The notes under the pieces were generated by a model. It made no database searches. It saw only the letters and a list, made by a program, of their open reading frames with translations, and had not been told where the DNA came from. Both the position numbers and the translations under genes were made by a program. From contig JAKLKB010000188.1 in assembly GCA_023150835.1 (NCBI GenBank), forward strand, positions 1 through 8,594: a stretch of DNA of 8,594 nt, in the 5' to 3' direction. This DNA is from Myxococcota bacterium. GTDB taxonomy: Bacteria; Myxococcota_C; UBA6777. Below are positions 3 through 8,420 of this stretch, piece by piece (within the stretch, counting starts at the first letter, position 1; each line of letters opens with the position of its first letter).

Positions 3-3000
3 CTCCACGATCCGCTCTGGAAGCCTCTTGTCGATGCTCTGCCACTTCTCCTCGCCGCTCAACCTCTGTTCCCCGATACCACCGACACTCTCCGCTCTCC
101 GCACACCCTTTACCTCGCCCCCCCCAGCGTGGCCCTCCTGCTCGACCCCATCCCCCTCCCCCACGCGATCTTTTTCCCTTTCCTTCCCACCAAAACGACC
201 GAACCATCGGCCTCACCTACACCCAAACAAACCAACGCCCACGACTCCATCCCGCCCGAACGATGGCCCGCAAGGCTTGATGTGCAGCCCGAAGAAGCGC
301 TGCGCTTACAGCAGTTGGGCGTCCCAACCTTCACTTTACCGATGTGGCTGGATCTGCTTGCTTTGTGGCTACACGATCACCCCGAAGGCGCCCCCCCGCC
401 CGAAAAGCTGGCTTCCTTGTTTGCTTCACCTCGGATCGATCGCCTTTACCAACAACTGACGCATCTCCTCCAATCACAAACCGCCGAAGATCCGTCGCAC
501 AGCCAAGCCTCACTCCAACAATTGCGCGAACTTCCGCTGTTGCTCGGTGAAGATGGCGGACTCTACCGCCCAAGCCGAGGCCAGATCGCCCTCGGCATCC
601 CTGCCATCCGCCAAGCATGGGGCTCCCAACAACGCTTCCTCCCCCAACACCTCCAAGATCAAGCCTCCGATCTCTTCCGACATCTGAGCATCCCCACCCG
701 CGATTTCCGCGATCTCGCAAACAAGATATCCCAAACCCTCGCCACCACCGACTTCTCCATCGATCCCCACCTCCACATACAAAAGAACATCCCCCCCCTC
801 CGCCTCACTCTTCAAGACTACACGCGATGCTGGCCTGTCCCTCGTGCGAGCCTCTTGGACAGCCTAACACACGCAACCGAAAACGAACGCAAAGCCTTTG
901 CCCGCTTGCCTCTGTTTCTTGCGCATGATCAACACCTTTACCCGCTCGCCCAAGATCCCCAAGACAACGGTGCTTTTTTCCTCCCCCCAAGCCCCGCCTA
1001 CAAGGCGGCCTTTGCGCTGCTTTCTCCACAGTTTCCGCTGCTTTCCGAAGACCCCTCGATCCGCCAACACTTTCCAACGCTCTCTCTTTATCCCTCTGCT
1101 CTTGTCGCGCTGATCACCCATCACGCGGAGCGCTTTCATGATCACCTGCTCGATCTGCACGCAGTCTTCGGGCTGATCGCAGACGACCTCACCCACACCC
1201 AACTCCACGCCCTTTGCAAAGCCCCGCTCTGGCTCACCACCCAACAGCGCATCACCTCGATCGATGCGCCTGATGCGCCCATGCTCACCCACGATCCTGA
1301 CCTGCCGCGCTTCCTCCCTTTACGCGAGTTCATCCACCCCGAGATCGCTGCACAGCCCCATACGCGGCTCTTACCTGTCTCTTCTTACGGTATCACCGAT
1401 CTTTTTGAGATGCTGCTTGCCGCCGATCCTCCCCTCGAAGCCTTCCAATCGTACCTTCTCAAACACGCTTCGCGCCTGCGCACCCTCCCCTTTGATCAAC
1501 GCGCCAAAGCCCCGCTGTTCCTCGACCAACACGATACGCGCCAGCCTGCCCAAGCCCTCAGCCGCTCTCCCGCTCCTGCGTGGCTCCCCTTTCTGCAACG
1601 CCGAGGCGAACGCCGATATCTCGCCGCTCATCCACCCGAACAATCGACGCTCTTGCAAGCCCTCGATCTTGAATCCGTCCTGCGCTCCGTTGCTCCCGCC
1701 GAGATCCTTCGTGAATCCTTTCAACAGCTCCACACCTTTGAACCCCAAGAAAAACAACTTCTTCTGCGCTTGATCCTCCAACACATCGACGCACTGCCCT
1801 TTGGACTGCTTGAGATGACACGCAAGTCCCCGATCTTCCCCGATACATCGGGAGCATTTGCCCCTCTCGCAGATTGGGACAAGACGCCTTGGCACGAACA
1901 CTTCCCCAAGCACCTGATCTTTCGCTGTGGGCCTCCGCTGCTGCGTACGATCTTGGAACAAGCGGGCTTTCGCTTGTTGGCCCTCGATACACAAGACGCC
2001 ATCCATCCGCTGTTTCAGCCGCTTTCTGTCCGTGACGCATCTCTTGGCGATCTCTTGGCGGTCTTGCGCCATGCTCCGCCCTCCTCCGAAAAACTCTCCT
2101 CCATCATCCTCCCGCTGATCCGCCGATTTTTCCAACAACACCTCGACGATCTCCGAACCCTCTTCCCTAAAATGTCTCGCCCTCACCGCGCTGATGGACA
2201 TCCCGATCTGGAAGCCCTTCCGCTGTTTTCCAACCAACTCCAACAACCCACGCCCCTCTCGCAACTGACCGACTCTCCGCTGCTTGACGATCTGTGGGGC
2301 CACGAATCTGCATGGCAACGGCGAAGGCTCCATCCCAACGAACAAGCCGATCTTACCGCGTTTTCAGGACTCATGGCCCCCTCTTCTGTCGTCGAAGTCC
2401 TCCGTAACGTCCTCGACGAGATCGCCCTTCCGCTTCGCCCCCTCGCCGAACAACCCGCTCCACTCGCCTCCCTAGAGCATCTCCAACAACACCTCCAACG
2501 CTTGTCCCCGCTTTGTTCCGCCGCAGAGCTTTCTGAGATGCCCTTGTGGGCGGATCGCAAGTCGCGGCTGCGCAAAGGCCCGCTGTCCCGACAAGGCACA
2601 CACCACGCAGCTTGGCTCGAAGGTCTCTCGATCACCAACGAACTTCTCCATCCCTCCCTTGAATCCGCCTTAACCAACGACCTCCGTCATGCTTTTCCAG
2701 AGATCTCCGTCTTTCATCTCCTTGATGCTTTTTCCAACGGTGCTTTTCCAGATCAACCTGTCTCCAAACACCCGACCCTCAACACTCTCGAACGCCGTAA
2801 GCTCTTTTATGACTTCTTGCTCCAGCGATGGGACGCCCTCTGCACAGACGAACGTAGCGCCAAACGCCTCCGAACTTCCGCACTTTTCGCCACAACCGAT
2901 GCCAAGCTTCACTCCCTCTACGAGATCGATTGGTCCACGCCTCCCCACGATCCACAGCAGCCACGTCCCGAAACCCTGATCCCTTCGGAGCTTTGCCGAC

Positions 3001-6000
3001 GCATCGAACGCCATCTCCTCGAACATCCGTTGTCTGTCCCCGAGCAAGCCCGTGCGCTGTTTGCACGCCTCCTTGAATCCGCCACACAGGACGACTTGGC
3101 TTCTTTTCAACACACCTACACCGCGCTCGCTCACCTCTGGCAACACGCCCCCTCTTCCCAACAAAAACAGATGCTTCTGTCTCTCCCCCAAGAAGAACTG
3201 CTTTTCCCAACCCTCACCTCCCAATGGCTGCCTCTCTCGCGTATCCTTTTGCCAGACTCCGAAGATCGCGATGTTCTGGCTCGGCTCCTCGGACCCTCGT
3301 TGCAGTTTCACGTCCCCCAACACCCCGCAGCAGTAGCCTTCGCACACGCGATCGGGATCGCCAAAGAACCCGACAGCAAAACGCTTCGACAACGCCTTGA
3401 TCACCTCGCATCCACCGAAGATTACAAAGCCTTCGCTCGCTATCTTAGCCGCCACCCACAATGCCTCCCCATCGAATCCCTGCGATCCACCACGTGGATA
3501 CTCGATGATCAACAAGCGGCTCGCCATCCAAGCGATCTCTACTGGTTCGACGAACGCATCCAACGCCTAACCCTCGACGCGCCCGGGATCTTCCCTGATG
3601 CTTTTTACGAAGACCTCCTTCCGACAGCCCTCCACAAACCGCTGCGCTTTCGCTCGATCAAAGACCTCGGCCTTCTCGATGTTCTCCCTGCACGTCCTGA
3701 TCACGCAACGCTCGATCAAGACGTGCTTTTGTGGATCGAACACGGACTCGAAGATCGCCGCTTTGCGCGAGACCTACTCCAAACACATACCAGCCGCCTG
3801 ACCTTGTCTTGCCACGATGGACAACCGCGCCCTCCGCGCCTTGTGCTTGCGCTTCCACCGACACCGCTTTTCGCCGATCTACGCGGCTTTTGGCCCGAAG
3901 GCGCGCACCGCTATCCTCTCTTTTGCAAAGCCCTGAATATCCCCACACAGATATCCTCCGATCTTGTGCGCAACTTCCTCGAACACATCGGACAATCCGC
4001 ACGCCAAGATCCACAGATCCTGCACAAACACCCTTCCCTGCTAGATGCCCTCCCCCGCTGCTACGCCTATCTCCACCCACAGCAAAGCACCCTCCGTACC
4101 AAGCTGCCCGTCTTTCTCGCCGAACGCATCGACCCCCAACGCACGCAGCCCTCAAACAAGGCCCATCCCCAAAGAGATCCATCACACTTCGCGTTGTTGT
4201 CGAGCGATGCCAAGGGCTTCTTCGTCTGCCAACGCCCCACCCTGATCGCACCGTACCGCAGTCTCAGCTTTTCTCTTGCGGCGCTCGGTCCTGCGGATAT
4301 CGCCCCCGATGCTGCGGCCTTTGCCTTGGCTTGTGGTGTCCCCGCCTTTGAATCCTGCATCAGCATCAAGATCTCTACCAAGGCCGGAAAAGACACCACC
4401 CAGCGCCACACCGAAACCCTCGACCGACTGCGCGAACTGATCGAGGCGCTGCGCTCCGTCCTGCCGCGTGTACAAGCCCAACGCGGCGGTCCAGATACTG
4501 ATTGGACTTTTGCTGATCAACTTGGCGCACTTCTTCAACCCAACGCCATCCACGTCTTCCAAGGACTCCACGTCAAAGCCTCCCTCAAAGACGTTGGAAA
4601 GCTCGATATCCCCGAGATGATCACCTATGATCCCCAAAAACACCGCCTGATGCTCGACGAAAAACTCTTGCGCTCTCTCTCCGACGCCACTCCTCGCCTC
4701 GCTTCCACTCTCGCACCGCTTGTCCACCGCGACCCACAACAACAAGCTCTCCCCGATATGATCGAACTGTTGTTGCGTTGCCAAACCCTCCCCGCCATGC
4801 AGCAATACCTCGACCAACGCCACTTTCCACGCGCCATCCTCGCCCAAAAACACAACAAGAAAAAACCCGACCACACCTCCTCCAAACACGCCGATCCCCA
4901 CAACGCAAGCGCCGAATACGCCGATCCCCACAACGCAAGTTCCGAATACGACGACCTTTACAACACCTCCGATGCTTTTGATCCATCTCGCCCCGATCAA
5001 GCCCCCTCCCCACAACCCGCCACCCAAGGCTTTCTCCGCGATCTCTGGTCTCGCTTCTTCCGCAAACCACCCACCACACCAACCCGCCCCACAAACACCG
5101 ATAAACCCGACAAAAACGCCGACACATCCGATAAAAACAAAAACAACAACAGCATCGACAAAAGCAACAACAGCATCGACAAAAACGCCGACGCATCCGA
5201 TAAAAACAAAAACAACAACAGCATCGACAAAAGCGCCGACACATCCGACAAAAACAACGCTTCGCCCAAAAAGCCCACACCACCGCCCAAACAAGAGCGC
5301 CCCTCTCCCTCTCCCATCGACGATGCGCCCGACCGCGATCACTCGCCGCCCTCTCGCTTCCTCGACGCCTTCAATCGCCTACTCCAACGGCAAAGCCGCC
5401 CTTCCAAACAGCACGACCCAAACGATGCCTTCCCTCGCCATGACGCTCACGATCCCAAGCCACCCTTCCCTTACGAAGACAGCGATCACGACAACACCGC
5501 ACCTTCCGATCCCAACGACTGGAACCGTCCAAGCGACTCCATCGGCCCACAACTTGATTTCGACGCGGGCCGATTTAGCCAACACGCCCCAAATCCCCAA
5601 GACATCGGACTCTTTCATCAGCCGACCGCTCTTCCGCACCCTTACCGTTATGCTCTCCACACCGTCACGGGCTACTTCGACCCCCGCACCCAACGTTGGT
5701 CGCCCACGCCGCTCAAGGCCCCGTTGATCTGGCAACACGGCCCCAAGCTCGGCTCCCTCCTCCTCCAAGGAAACCTCCCCCCCGGCCTGATCCAACTTCC
5801 GATGCCTTTGTACAGCGCAAGCAATGCACCCCCCGAGATCACCTGCAACGGCGAAACGGTCGATTACAGGGTCAAGACCGCCACGCCCGACACATGGCAG
5901 ATCCAGATCAATGCCCCAAGCACCGCCACGATCCGCTACGCCCTCGACCTCTATTCGCCCCCACCCATCGCCTCCCAAGGCTCCATCCACCCCAACAAAC

Positions 6001-6851
6001 ACTACTCCCAGCCCACCGCACGGCGCGAAGATCTCCCTCCTGCCTTGCAAGACTTTTTGGCCGACCTCCAATCGAGCGATCTGAGCGCACTCGAAAAAGC
6101 CCGACGGATCGAACAATTGGTGCGCAAGCGTTATCTCTACGAGATGGAATACGCCAAACGACCTGCGGTTCGCGCTGCCCGCGAGCGCATCCATCAAGAT
6201 CGCCGCCCCCTCCAAAATGATGCGCTGATCCTTTTGCATGCCGGTCAACACGGGGCCTATTGGGGGGTGGGCGTCTGTCACGGACTCAATCTCTTGATCG
6301 CCGAGATGCTCCGACAAGTCGGTATACCAAGCGCCATCGCAACCTGTTGGGTTCTCGATCAAGGCTTCCTCTCCCGCCCTGATCACTTGATCGCCTTGGC
6401 GTTGCTCCCCACCGAAGGCGGTCTGACCGCCCTTCCTCTCGACGGCGCGGTCAACCACCAAGATCGTGTTCTTCACAGCGCCTCCCCTCCCCCTCCCAAA
6501 AATATCCCCGATCTCCCGAGTCTTCCACCGCCCAACACCCAACGCGCCGCACTGATCGAGCAGATCGCACTTTACCAGCGGCTGCTCACCCGCCTTCAAA
6601 CACCGCTGCCTCTTCCTTCTCTCGAAGAACTCGACTTCAACGCGCTCCAGCGGCAATTCCAAGCCATCCGCCAACACCTGCTCGATGCGTTAGGCTCCAA
6701 ACATCTGCTTCATCGCTTGCTTGCGATCCTTGATGCAGGTGAACTCCGCACCGAACACCTCGACCCCACCCTCCAAACTCTCCTCGATCGCGGCTTGATC
6801 CAAGCCGAGCAGCACACCACTTGGCAGATCCGCCCCCGTGATCGCAACTAA
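3..6851 (+). CDS. Giant sacsin-like repeat protein with C-terminal transglutaminase-like domain (5' truncated)
   Basis: Frame 3 is open from the first full codon to TAA at 6849-6851 (2,282 residues). GTG at 129 is an unlikely start: no ribosome binding site precedes it and protein-like sequence continues upstream. Residues ~1-1600 are Leu-rich and helical, with a recurring 'LPLFLxxD' type motif (residues near 178, 303, 408, 504, 610, 740, 847, 960, 1067, 1165, 1281, 1369). This resembles bacterial sacsin-like giants, whose N-terminus usually carries an HSP90-like ATPase domain; here that part would be off the window. Residues ~1615-1860 are a disordered Asp/Lys/Asn/Pro-rich linker. Residues ~1880-1990 look beta-rich. 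Residues ~2010-2160 resemble a transglutaminase-like core with Cys2092 (GVCHGLN), His2128 (DHLIALAL) and Asp2147 (PLDGAV). Residues ~2180-2282 are helical. No signal peptide or membrane segment is visible, so a cytoplasmic chaperone-like or scaffold role with protease or amidase-type chemistry is inferred. The reading frame is secure, the transglutaminase fold likely, the sacsin relation moderate, and the biological role unknown. Confidence 0.8.
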   Translation, partial: LHDPLWKPLVDALPLLLAAQPLFPDTTDTLRSPHTLYLAPPSVALLLDPIPLPHAIFFPFLPTKTTEPSASPTPKQTNAHDSIPPERWPARLDVQPEEALRLQQLGVPTFTLPMWLDLLALWLHDHPEGAPPPEKLASLFASPRIDRLYQQLTHLLQSQTAEDPSHSQASLQQLRELPLLLGEDGGLYRPSRGQIALGIPAIRQAWGSQQRFLPQHLQDQASDLFRHLSIPTRDFRDLANKISQTLATTDFSIDPHLHIQKNIPPLRLTLQDYTRCWPVPRASLLDSLTHATENERKAFARLPLFLAHDQHLYPLAQDPQDNGAFFLPPSPAYKAAFALLSPQFPLLSEDPSIRQHFPTLSLYPSALVALITHHAERFHDHLLDLHAVFGLIADDLTHTQLHALCKAPLWLTTQQRITSIDAPDAPMLTHDPDLPRFLPLREFIHPEIAAQPHTRLLPVSSYGITDLFEMLLAADPPLEAFQSYLLKHASRLRTLPFDQRAKAPLFLDQHDTRQPAQALSRSPAPAWLPFLQRRGERRYLAAHPPEQSTLLQALDLESVLRSVAPAEILRESFQQLHTFEPQEKQLLLRLILQHIDALPFGLLEMTRKSPIFPDTSGAFAPLADWDKTPWHEHFPKHLIFRCGPPLLRTILEQAGFRLLALDTQDAIHPLFQPLSVRDASLGDLLAVLRHAPPSSEKLSSIILPLIRRFFQQHLDDLRTLFPKMSRPHRADGHPDLEALPLFSNQLQQPTPLSQLTDSPLLDDLWGHESAWQRRRLHPNEQADLTAFSGLMAPSSVVEVLRNVLDEIALPLRPLAEQPAPLASLEHLQQHLQRLSPLCSAAELSEMPLWADRKSRLRKGPLSRQGTHHAAWLEGLSITNELLHPSLESALTNDLRHAFPEISVFHLLDAFSNGAFPDQPVSKHPTLNTLERRKLFYDFLLQRWDALCTDERSAKRLRTSALFATTDAKLHSLYEIDWSTPPHDPQQPRPETLIPSELCRRIERHLLEHPLSVPEQARALFARLLESATQDDLASFQHTYTALAHLWQHAPSSQQKQMLLSLPQEELLFPTLTSQWLPLSRILLPDSEDRDVLARLLGPSLQFHVPQHPAAVAFAHAIGIAKEPDSKTLRQRLDHLASTEDYKAFARYLSRHPQCLPIESLRSTTWILDDQQAARHPSDLYWFDERIQRLTLDAPGIFPDAFYEDLLPTALHKPLRFRSIKDLGLLDVLPARPDHATLDQDVLLWIEHGLEDRRFARDLLQTHTSRLTLSCHDGQPRPPRLVLALPPTPLFADLRGFWPEGAHRYPLFCKALNIPTQISSDLVRNFLEHIGQSARQDPQILHKHPSLLDALPRCYAYLHPQQSTLRTKLPVFLAERIDPQRTQPSNKAHPQRDPSHFALLSSDAKGFFVCQRPTLIAPYRSLSFSLAALGPADIAPDAAAFALACGVPAFESCISIKISTKAGKDTTQRHTETLDRLRELIEALRSVLPRVQAQRGGPDTDWTFADQLGALLQPNAIHVFQGLHVKASLKDVGKLDIPEMITYDPQKHRLMLDEKLLRSLSDATPRLASTLAPLVHRDPQQQALPDMIELLLRCQTLPAMQQYLDQRHFPRAILAQKHNKKKPDHTSSKHADPHNASAEYADPHNASSEYDDLYNTSDAFDPSRPDQAPSPQPATQGFLRDLWSRFFRKPPTTPTRPTNTDKPDKNADTSDKNKNNNSIDKSNNSIDKNADASDKNKNNNSIDKSADTSDKNNASPKKPTPPPKQERPSPSPIDDAPDRDHSPPSRFLDAFNRLLQRQSRPSKQHDPNDAFPRHDAHDPKPPFPYEDSDHDNTAPSDPNDWNRPSDSIGPQLDFDAGRFSQHAPNPQDIGLFHQPTALPHPYRYALHTVTGYFDPRTQRWSPTPLKAPLIWQHGPKLGSLLLQGNLPPGLIQLPMPLYSASNAPPEITCNGETVDYRVKTATPDTWQIQINAPSTATIRYALDLYSPPPIASQGSIHPNKHYSQPTARREDLPPALQDFLADLQSSDLSALEKARRIEQLVRKRYLYEMEYAKRPAVRAARERIHQDRRPLQNDALILLHAGQHGAYWGVGVCHGLNLLIAEMLRQVGIPSAIATCWVLDQGFLSRPDHLIALALLPTEGGLTALPLDGAVNHQDRVLHSASPPPPKNIPDLPSLPPPNTQRAALIEQIALYQRLLTRLQTPLPLPSLEELDFNALQRQFQAIRQHLLDALGSKHLLHRLLAILDAGELRTEHLDPTLQTLLDRGLIQAEQHTTWQIRPRDRN
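4890..4979 (+). repeat. Three 30-bp in-frame repeats encoding a decapeptide
   Basis: Two nearly identical 30-bp units encode ADPHNASAEY (residues 1630-1639) and ADPHNASSEY (1640-1649). A diverged third unit encodes DDLYNTSDAF (1650-1659). The consensus is [AD]D[PL][HY]N[AT]Sx[EA][YF]. The two first copies differ at only a few bases, so the duplication is recent, while the third has drifted. It lies at the beginning of the disordered linker. Confidence 0.85.
5109..5258 (+). repeat. 69-bp in-frame repeat encoding DKNADTSDKNKNNNSIDKS
   Basis: A unit beginning at 5109 is repeated at 5178 with a 69-bp period (23 residues). The first 57 bases of the two copies differ at one position (ACA/GCA, Thr/Ala). 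A partial third copy (DKSADTSDKN) starts at 5226. The tract is Asn/Lys/Asp/Ser-rich and A-rich, in sharp contrast to the C-rich flanks. Near identity of the copies indicates recent slippage or unequal exchange, so copy number may vary between strains. Confidence 0.85.
6030..6482 (+). other. Transglutaminase-like (papain-fold) domain in the giant protein
   Basis: Residues ~2010-2160 of the visible protein. A helical lead-in (ALEKARRIEQLVRKRY) precedes 'GVCHGLNLLIAEMLRQVGIP', the usual Cys-bearing helix followed by the 'GIP' strand of transglutaminase-core proteins. His2128 follows 36 residues after Cys2092, and Asp2147 another 19 residues later, close to family spacing. The usual 'HAW' around the His is replaced by 'DHLIAL', so this is a divergent member. 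In bacteria such domains act as cysteine proteases, amidases or protein cross-linkers; the sequence does not say which applies here. Confidence 0.7.
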
Positions 6852-7074: not shown

Positions 7075-7647
7075 TCAGAGTTGCGTAGCTTGTTCGGAAG
7101 GCAAGGGGAGGAAGATACGTTGGCGATAAAAGCGCAACTCATCGACAGATTCACGGATGTCATCAAGCGCGAGGTGGCTTTGCTTTTTGGGGGGGGCGTG
7201 CATCTCGGGCGGATACCAGCGGCGCACAAGCTCTTTGATCGAGGAAACGTCGACATTTCGGTAATGAAAGTGTGCTTCGAGCTTCGGCATATATTTCAGC
7301 AGAAAAAGCCGATCTTGGAAGATGGTATTGCCGCAAAGAGGGCTTGTGAACGGGTAGGTGTAAAGCTGCAAAAAGTCTAGCGTGGCTTCTTCGGCGTCTT
7401 GCATGGAGACATGGGAGGTGCGCACACGCTCCAACAAGCCGCTCTGTCCGTGATGTGTCGTATTCCACTCGTCCATCGCCTGCAAGACTTCTTCGGGCTG
7501 ATAGATCGCCATCACGGGGCCTTCCGCCACCAAGTTCAATTCGGCATCCGTCACCAACGTCGCGATCTCAAGAATCGTACTCGTCCGAATATCCAACCCC
7601 GTCATCTCCAAATCGATCCAGATCAGATGCGTTTTCTCTTGTGACAC
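7075..7647 (-). CDS. orn: Oligoribonuclease (3'-5' exoribonuclease, DEDDh family)
   Basis: Degrades 2-5 nt RNA oligonucleotides to mononucleotides in the cytoplasm as the last step of RNA decay; Orn also clears pGpG from cyclic-di-GMP turnover. The product has 190 residues, against 181 in E. coli. Motifs: Exo I 'WIDLEMTGLD' (Asp12, Glu14), Exo II 'CGNTIFQDRLFL' (Asp112), Exo III 'HLALDDIRESV' (His158, Asp163). These are the same positions as in the E. coli enzyme. 'LEIATLVTDAELNLVAEGP' and 'YMPKLEAHFHYRNVDVSSIKEL' are also typical. The frame runs back to an ATG at 7707, but GTG at 7647 is preferred: AGGAG lies six bases upstream and the resulting MSQEKTHLIW matches the family N-terminus. A C8A5 run (residues 151-155) precedes the catalytic His. 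The C-terminus carries ~10 extra residues. It is convergent with the giant gene and divergent from the 7974 gene, so probably a single-gene transcript. Confidence 0.96.
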   Translation of the reverse strand: MSQEKTHLIWIDLEMTGLDIRTSTILEIATLVTDAELNLVAEGPVMAIYQPEEVLQAMDEWNTTHHGQSGLLERVRTSHVSMQDAEEATLDFLQLYTYPFTSPLCGNTIFQDRLFLLKYMPKLEAHFHYRNVDVSSIKELVRRWYPPEMHAPPKKQSHLALDDIRESVDELRFYRQRIFLPLPSEQATQL

Positions 7648-7653
7648 AGACTG

Positions 7654-7658
7654 CTCCT
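7654..7658 (-). promoter_or_regulatory. Ribosome binding site of orn
   Basis: On the - strand AAAGGAG precedes GTG at 7647, with six bases between AGGAG and the start. This decides the GTG start over the upstream in-frame ATG at 7707, which has no comparable site. Confidence 0.85.
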
Positions 7659-7716
7659 TTCGCTTTTTTTTGCAAACCGATACCACCGTAAAGCCAAATA
7701 AACACAAACACCCGCT

Positions 7717-7973: not shown

Positions 7974-8420
7974 GTGTTGAAAAAGGCCGAAAAGAGCATC
8001 GACCTGAGCGCTTTAGAGATTCAAAACTACACGCAGGAACAAGTGGCAAGTTTCCGTATCGTGAGGGAAGACTACCCAGAACAGTTGGAGCCTGTACTCA
8101 AAGGACTGGTCAACGATCCGACGTTGGTTGAAGTGAAAGGCGTGAATTATGGAGAGCTTCAAGATCGATTGAAAAAAGCCATGGAGTTGAAAGAAGCAGA
8201 AGACTGGCTGGAGAAGAAATGGAAGCTGATTCAAGAAAACCGAAGAGCCGTCTTGTCGGGCATTAAAGAGCAGATGGATCGCGTGGTGGAAGTGGCAAAG
8301 GTTCAATCACAAGCGGATCCCCAAGTGACTACGTTGTTCGCGGATTTCTTGGATTATCGGGCAACTCCGGGGAAAAAAGCTGCCGCAACAAAAAAGAAAA
8401 AAGCGCAAAGCCAAGGATAA
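7974..8420 (+). CDS. Hypothetical helical protein with Lys/Ala-rich C-terminal tail
   Basis: 148 residues, not recognised. It begins with GTG behind a strong ribosome binding site. Residues 1-57 are mixed and acidic ('LSALEIQNYTQEQVASFRIVR', 'EDYPEQLEPVLKGL'). Residues ~58-112 are continuous charged helix, possibly coiled coil ('ELQDRLKKAMELKEAEDWLEKKW', broken here for description: residues 61-83). Residues 113-130 form a short hydrophobic segment (LFADFLDY). Residues 131-148 are a basic tail 'TPGKKAAATKKKKAQSQG' resembling the flexible Lys/Ala tails of some nucleic-acid-binding proteins. There is no signal peptide or membrane helix, so it is probably cytoplasmic. Unlike the giant gene it has ordinary purine-rich coding. 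It diverges from orn and is followed after 10 bp by a 20-bp tandem array. A nucleic-acid-binding role is inferred only from the tail and context. Confidence 0.8.
   Translation: MLKKAEKSIDLSALEIQNYTQEQVASFRIVREDYPEQLEPVLKGLVNDPTLVEVKGVNYGELQDRLKKAMELKEAEDWLEKKWKLIQENRRAVLSGIKEQMDRVVEVAKVQSQADPQVTTLFADFLDYRATPGKKAAATKKKKAQSQG

Follow-up and report, generated by a model that had tools for sequence, protein, structure and literature searches.

A bacterial protein family joining a single sacsin-type ATPase, a repeat solenoid and a predicted transglutaminase-like enzyme in one chain

The stretch of DNA analysed here (the window, 8,594 nucleotides, which is the entire contig C144 in a 7.56-Mb draft genome of a Myxococcota bacterium) carries most of a giant gene whose product represents a conserved bacterial protein family. 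As predicted, the complete chain would run from an N-terminal helical domain through a single GHKL ATPase of the sacsin/HSP90 type, its middle domain and about 13 repeats to a linker and a thiol enzyme. Human sacsin is a giant HSP90-related protein that is lost in the ataxia ARSACS, and bacterial relatives of sacsin are known mainly through the Tiamat defence protein. To the favoured reading, a client-capture machine of the cytosol that is driven by ATP and has a thiol enzyme tethered to it, we give about an even chance.

The main open reading frame (ORF) of the window comprises 2,282 stop-free residues and extends beyond the start of the contig. Its 5' end is lacking because contig C144 stops there, and the suspicion of the initial annotation that an upstream part was missing was borne out by recovery of the start from the same genome. 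When this genome was searched with the ORF, the second match covered residues 1-30 of the ORF and lay at a terminus of contig C209, on the minus strand, within a 708-residue open frame. The ends of the two contigs share a 92-base overlap with one mismatch, which falls on the third base of a Leu codon. C209 supplies 597 residues from a Met that aligns to the N-terminus of a complete homologue, and the whole protein therefore has about 2,850 amino acids (aa; Table 1). The reading of the ORF as a complete gene with an internal GTG start is ruled out, as the true start lies on C209. A complete homologue from the same genus (KLAP109, L017:9967-18540) has 2,858 aa, and a relative from another genus of the same taxonomic family (NP119, L018:1366-8985) has 2,540 aa and is 29% identical to the window protein along its length. 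The sister species within the genus shares 89% identity over 2,249 aligned residues, with a dN/dS of 0.25. This conservation at the protein level and the dN/dS rule out a chance or artefactual ORF, whereas the long ORFs in other frames are without such support. ORF 3-6851 is a real gene.

Table 1. Positions of the giant gene, its parts and its upstream neighbour. Positions refer to the window unless a contig or locus is named; residues are those of the window protein.
Feature	Position	Strand	Details
Giant gene, 3' four fifths	3..6851	+	2,282 of ~2,850 codons; stop 6849-6851
5' continuation of giant gene	contig C209, locus L016, 1791 down to 1	-	
Solenoid, 13 degenerate units of ~105 residues	48..4208	+	residues 16-1402; iterative profile
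Conserved post-repeat segment	4443..4802	+	residues 1481-1600; 95% identity to sister species; dN/dS 0.10
Linker, low-complexity, charged/proline-rich	4803..5552	+	residues 1601-1850; dN/dS 0.76
Beta-rich domain before thiol enzyme	5607..5954	+	residues 1869-1984; AlphaFold model m55cea1a8479c
Transglutaminase-like core	5970..6470	+	residues 1990-2156; Transglut_core match and structure match
Predicted catalytic Cys2092 (GVGVCHGLN), opens helix	6276..6278	+	invariant 20/20
Predicted catalytic His2128 (RPDHLIA), opens strand	6384..6386	+	invariant 20/20
Predicted catalytic Asp2147 (LPLDGA), just past next strand	6441..6443	+	invariant 20/20
C-terminal winged-helix-like domain	6696..6848	+	residues 2232-2282; one subclade only
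M48/HtpX-like protease gene	L016 1952-4273; L017 7610-9931	-; +	dN/dS 0.18

The strongest matches of the N-terminal part are to the PADLOC models of TmtA (Tiamat), covering about 550 residues with an E-value of about 1e-45; the best of these (E 7e-46) pairs residues 236-787 of the 2,858-aa protein with positions 35-580 of a model of 1,655. An upstream HSP90-like ATPase of sacsin type had been anticipated from the window, and its presence is indicated by matches to Pfam SACS (PF25794; E 2.6e-11 to 8.9e-14) and to the NCBIfam sacsin N-terminal ATP-binding domain (E 1e-20 to 1e-22). A family-profile search also retrieves the solved sacsin SR1 chains by sequence (E 7e-8). When residues 1-1180 of the whole homologue were modelled with AlphaFold (mean pLDDT 83.1, pTM 0.62), the best match of the model was human sacsin SR1 (Z 15.4, rmsd 3.4, 178 residues), followed by the ATPase regions of HSP90 and GyrB, and Foldseek aligns it with the N and middle domains of HSP90 at an E-value of about 1e-6. 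Residues 1-222 form an extra helical domain, which is modelled with confidence.

For the ATP site, residue equivalences between HSP90 and sacsin were taken from PMC9880540. The equivalents of HSP90 Glu33, Leu34, Asn37, Asp40, Gly118, Gly121, Gly123 and Phe124 are invariant in 20/20 family sequences, and those of Asp79 and Thr171, an equivalence drawn from our own alignment, are kept in 19/20. Arginines 513 and 515, both candidates for the catalytic-loop arginine, are invariant as well (20/20). Judged by these residues, the ATP site is intact and the activity putative. Between two species of the genus, the dN/dS is 0.12 in the ATPase and likewise in the core of the thiol enzyme, a sign of strong purifying selection, and both have therefore been kept functional.

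The comparison with vertebrate sacsin (SACS) holds for the ATPase, which resembles SR1 by sequence and predicted fold, for the long repeat region that follows it and for the nature of the protein as a giant cytosolic chain. It does not hold for the number of ATPase modules, which qualifies the initial interpretation, otherwise supported. Sacsin is defined by three internal repeats (SIRPT1-3) that all contain an ATPase of their own (PMC3629688), whereas a single module per protein was found in 19/19 long ORFs of the bacterial family. For the ubiquitin-like, DnaJ and HEPN domains of sacsin, a Pfam comparison of two full-length members at an E-value of 0.1 yielded nothing, and the bacterial family differs further in carrying the transglutaminase-like enzyme. 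HSP90/HtpG shares the GHKL ATPase and, in the model, a partly similar middle domain, but the giant protein scores only 11-15 bits against the full NCBIfam HSP90/HtpG models, whose cut-offs lie above 370, and no HSP90 C-terminal dimerisation domain was recognised in it.

The ATPase is followed by a degenerate solenoid with the consensus LAALPLFPDDDGRLRPLAALLRADPELRALLG and a spacing of 96-130 residues between units. An iterated profile detects 13 units in the window protein and 6-13 per family member; in the control, it gave one hit among shuffled copies of all 20 sequences. A short strand motif (LPLFPDDDGRLRPL) accompanies the helices of the units, and in the AlphaFold model every unit combines its helices with a short strand pair. 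The scaffold is therefore alpha-beta and not purely helical, which refines the proposal of a long helical repeat scaffold while confirming the repeats themselves. Along its length the dN/dS between the two species is 0.13-0.25. Behind the conserved post-repeat segment lies the linker, for which the identity to the sister species falls to 76% compared with 89% overall. With its nearly neutral dN/dS, this segment behaves as a spacer; it is presumably disordered and joins the scaffold to the thiol domain as originally described.

Among the enzymes with a transglutaminase fold are peptidases, amidases and true transglutaminases, as well as members that have lost activity. The C-terminal module was recognised by Transglut_core (PF01841) with 25.4 bits in the genome search, above the curated cut-off of 23, with 21.1 bits when the window protein was scanned whole and with 42.8 bits in a relative. 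Neither the window protein alone nor the C-terminal profile yielded a useful sequence match in the PDB, and within six carrier genomes no further match to the family profile was found at an E-value of 1e-5. Residues 1850-2282 were modelled with AlphaFold using 20 family sequences (mean pLDDT 83.7, pTM 0.70). The model contains a beta-rich domain with strands at model residues 20-135 (pLDDT about 75-90), and residues 2010-2160 adopt the papain/transglutaminase fold that the initial annotation had proposed together with a Cys-His-Asp triad. According to the secondary-structure positions in the model, the triad is placed canonically for a transglutaminase fold. The best structure match is TgpA, the periplasmic transglutaminase from Pseudomonas aeruginosa (6g4h/6g49; VIA Z 14.6, rmsd 4.1, 241 residues, beta domain included), the second is the Cytophaga cysteine protease 3isr (Z 10.0), and human transglutaminases and LapG follow at a Z of about 6; since the structure-search list holds few transglutaminase-fold peptidases, this ranking counts nothing against such peptidases.

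The resemblance to TgpA raises the question of the reaction. TgpA, the nearest solved relative, is active as a transglutaminase in vitro (PMC3507681) and is the best structural match even across the beta domain, so the module could be a true transglutaminase that covalently joins clients held by the scaffold. However, TgpA sits in the membrane and has its enzyme part in the periplasm, whereas the giant protein is fused to an ATPase scaffold and has no predicted transmembrane segment. As the later structure matches include proteases such as LapG, the fold alone cannot choose the reaction. We consider such a structural cross-linker improbable, and equally so its action on, for example, cell-envelope or cell-interior assemblies of large-genome bacteria. 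Alternatively, the thiol domain could be a non-catalytic substrate-binding or regulatory module and the protein solely a chaperone, since inactive transglutaminase-fold domains occur in other proteins (PMC10318531). Against this stands the triad, which is invariant in 20/20 sequences across several phyla at about 30% identity, as well as the low dN/dS of the core, and we regard this possibility as very remote.

Beyond the thiol core, the C-terminal tail has a higher dN/dS (0.45 between the two species). Its winged-helix-like domain shows a modest similarity to ArsR-type repressors (VIA Z 6.2, rmsd 2.9, 51 residues), and its presence separates the two subclades of the family. This domain might bind DNA or a partner protein.

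The survey of homologues for the same fusion, as proposed initially, uncovered a family of single origin. A scan with the ATPase profile across 84,980 species genomes returned 22 close loci, namely the sister species and 21 loci with 40-53% identity, before identity dropped to about 33% and below. The transglutaminase module was present in 19/19 close relatives whose ORF reaches the C-terminal region; the other three of the 22 loci were left out, two being cut by contig ends before the module and one having a broken frame. This last locus (L036 9332-17421), from a Myxococcales MAG (UBA5297), may reflect decay or an assembly error. By comparison, none of the 58 more distant sacsin/Tiamat-like ORFs (478-1,553 aa) has the module. 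These ORFs are mostly 950-1,550 aa long, while complete family members span 2,413-3,005 aa, and the family adds the N-terminal helical domain and the thiol module. A maximum-likelihood tree of the ATPase splits the fusion family from the more distant ORFs with 100/100 support. This tree rules out that a transglutaminase domain was generically recruited within a single lineage; on the sequences compared, the fusion arose once and has been kept.

Carriers comprise MAGs named Myxococcota, Planctomycetota, Eremiobacterota, Obscuribacterales and Proteobacteria, together with the isolate Paraliomyxa miuraensis. Their genomes usually hold one copy and are mostly larger than 6.5 Mb; in one MAG (G346), two family members, one per subclade, fall in the same bin (L020 and L029). 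The mixing of phyla in the ATPase tree suggests horizontal transfer, although the naming or binning of some MAGs may be in error. The distribution is sporadic, with the module in 29/1,019 genomes (3/5, 14/377, 7/149, 3/294 and 2/194 in the individual samples), which were sampled around known carriers and do not give an unbiased prevalence.

This patchy occurrence across phyla, in conjunction with the kinship to Tiamat, could point to an antiviral function. Tiamat, a relative of the ATPase, is antiviral, and by extension the giant protein would be a sensor-effector. Its ATPase and solenoid would sense a phage component, a step that we consider possible but rather unlikely; to the same degree doubtful is the subsequent nucleotide-driven rearrangement that would set the thiol enzyme free, with cleavage or modification of proteins of the host or the phage aborting the infection. 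TmtA and the DUF3883/sacsin-like bacterial proteins share a homologous N-terminal ATPase and middle region with the family and form its sister group in the tree; five of the more distant ORFs were checked against the same models, and all match TmtA. Effector-type transglutaminase-like peptidases fused to other domains have also been described in other bacterial conflict systems (PMC3710099, PMC8195603). However, the TmtA match of the family is confined to the N-terminal part, whereas some TmtA-like ORFs match to near the C-terminal end of the models. These models comprise 1,063-1,782 positions, compared with 2,858 aa for the family protein, and no full-length match was obtained.

The genomic context also speaks against the sensor-effector. 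No close relatives were found in plasmid and phage collections, where the best identity was about 33% over most of the query. Neighbouring genes are mostly metabolic and housekeeping, and defence genes do not recur consistently among them. Genes for an HflX-type GTPase, oxidoreductases, arginyl-tRNA synthetase and response regulators are among the neighbours. A comparison of 98 neighbour proteins, from gene calls based on codon composition, with PADLOC gave best matches in two-member families, several of them generic kinase or AAA models, in a comparison made without a baseline that speaks neither for nor against a defence island. In Eremiobacterota, the giant gene has retained its place beside the same oxidoreductase gene in several species, and all folded parts of the protein are under purifying selection.

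In the genus of the window, an M48 (HtpX-like) membrane protease gene ends 36 bases before the giant gene in the same orientation, and the gene order upstream of the giant gene is identical in both same-genus genomes. The protease gene and the giant gene may form an operon for stress or quality-control proteins. As a conserved operon partner, the protease is ruled out because it occurs at family loci of this genus only. No partner gene common to the whole family was found, and the clustering of neighbours reflects local synteny only. Further upstream, AcrB, HlyD and outer-membrane efflux genes are located at L016 7001-12387 on the minus strand; AcrB and HlyD are also present in the sister species. 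Downstream in the window, an RNase_T exonuclease gene (7075-7707, minus strand, E 1.5e-29), an oligoribonuclease by its start motif, is convergent with the giant gene, and a 148-aa ORF without a Pfam match lies at 7974-8420 on the plus strand.

Taken individually, sacsin, Tiamat and TgpA are known; the latter shares with the giant protein the beta domain and core, alignable over 241 residues, and the Cys-His-Asp triad. The permanent fusion of their parts in one chain sets the family apart, and, in agreement with the initial annotation, which knew of no described system with this architecture, no description of a sacsin-type ATPase fused to a transglutaminase was found in the open-licence literature. 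Since ATPase and enzyme share one chain and there is no conserved partner gene, the protein is probably a self-contained capture-and-modify machine. It would act in the cytosol, given that no transmembrane segments are predicted in the window protein or in its sister.

In such a client-capture machine, ATP binding and hydrolysis would open and close the ATPase clamp and the solenoid on a protein client, whose binding by these parts is proposed by analogy with HSP90 and sacsin. The flexible linker would give the tethered TgpA-like thiol enzyme reach to the client, and its Cys would attack an amide, either of a peptide or of a Gln side chain; cleavage, deamidation or cross-linking of the client may result. 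The most likely role is the disposal or marking of damaged or foreign cytosolic proteins. A possible quality-control role would fit the stable chromosomal context and purifying selection, and a possible antiviral role would fit the kinship to Tiamat, the patchy distribution and the mixed phyla.

Only tentatively can the protein be regarded as the first one-chain machine that is powered by an HSP90-family ATPase and cleaves or cross-links proteins; should it turn out to be an HSP90-driven protease, it would represent a new kind of ATP-dependent protein-processing machine. With similar reserve, it may be viewed as a one-chain analogue of the AAA+ unfoldase-proteases: the AAA+ ring would be replaced by a GHKL clamp together with a sacsin-like solenoid, which would capture the client and pass it to the tethered transglutaminase-fold enzyme. 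Paraliomyxa miuraensis, a sequenced isolate with a family member, may give access to the family. The bacterial fusion would offer a direct readout, as the targets of the enzyme would reveal the cargo of the scaffold.
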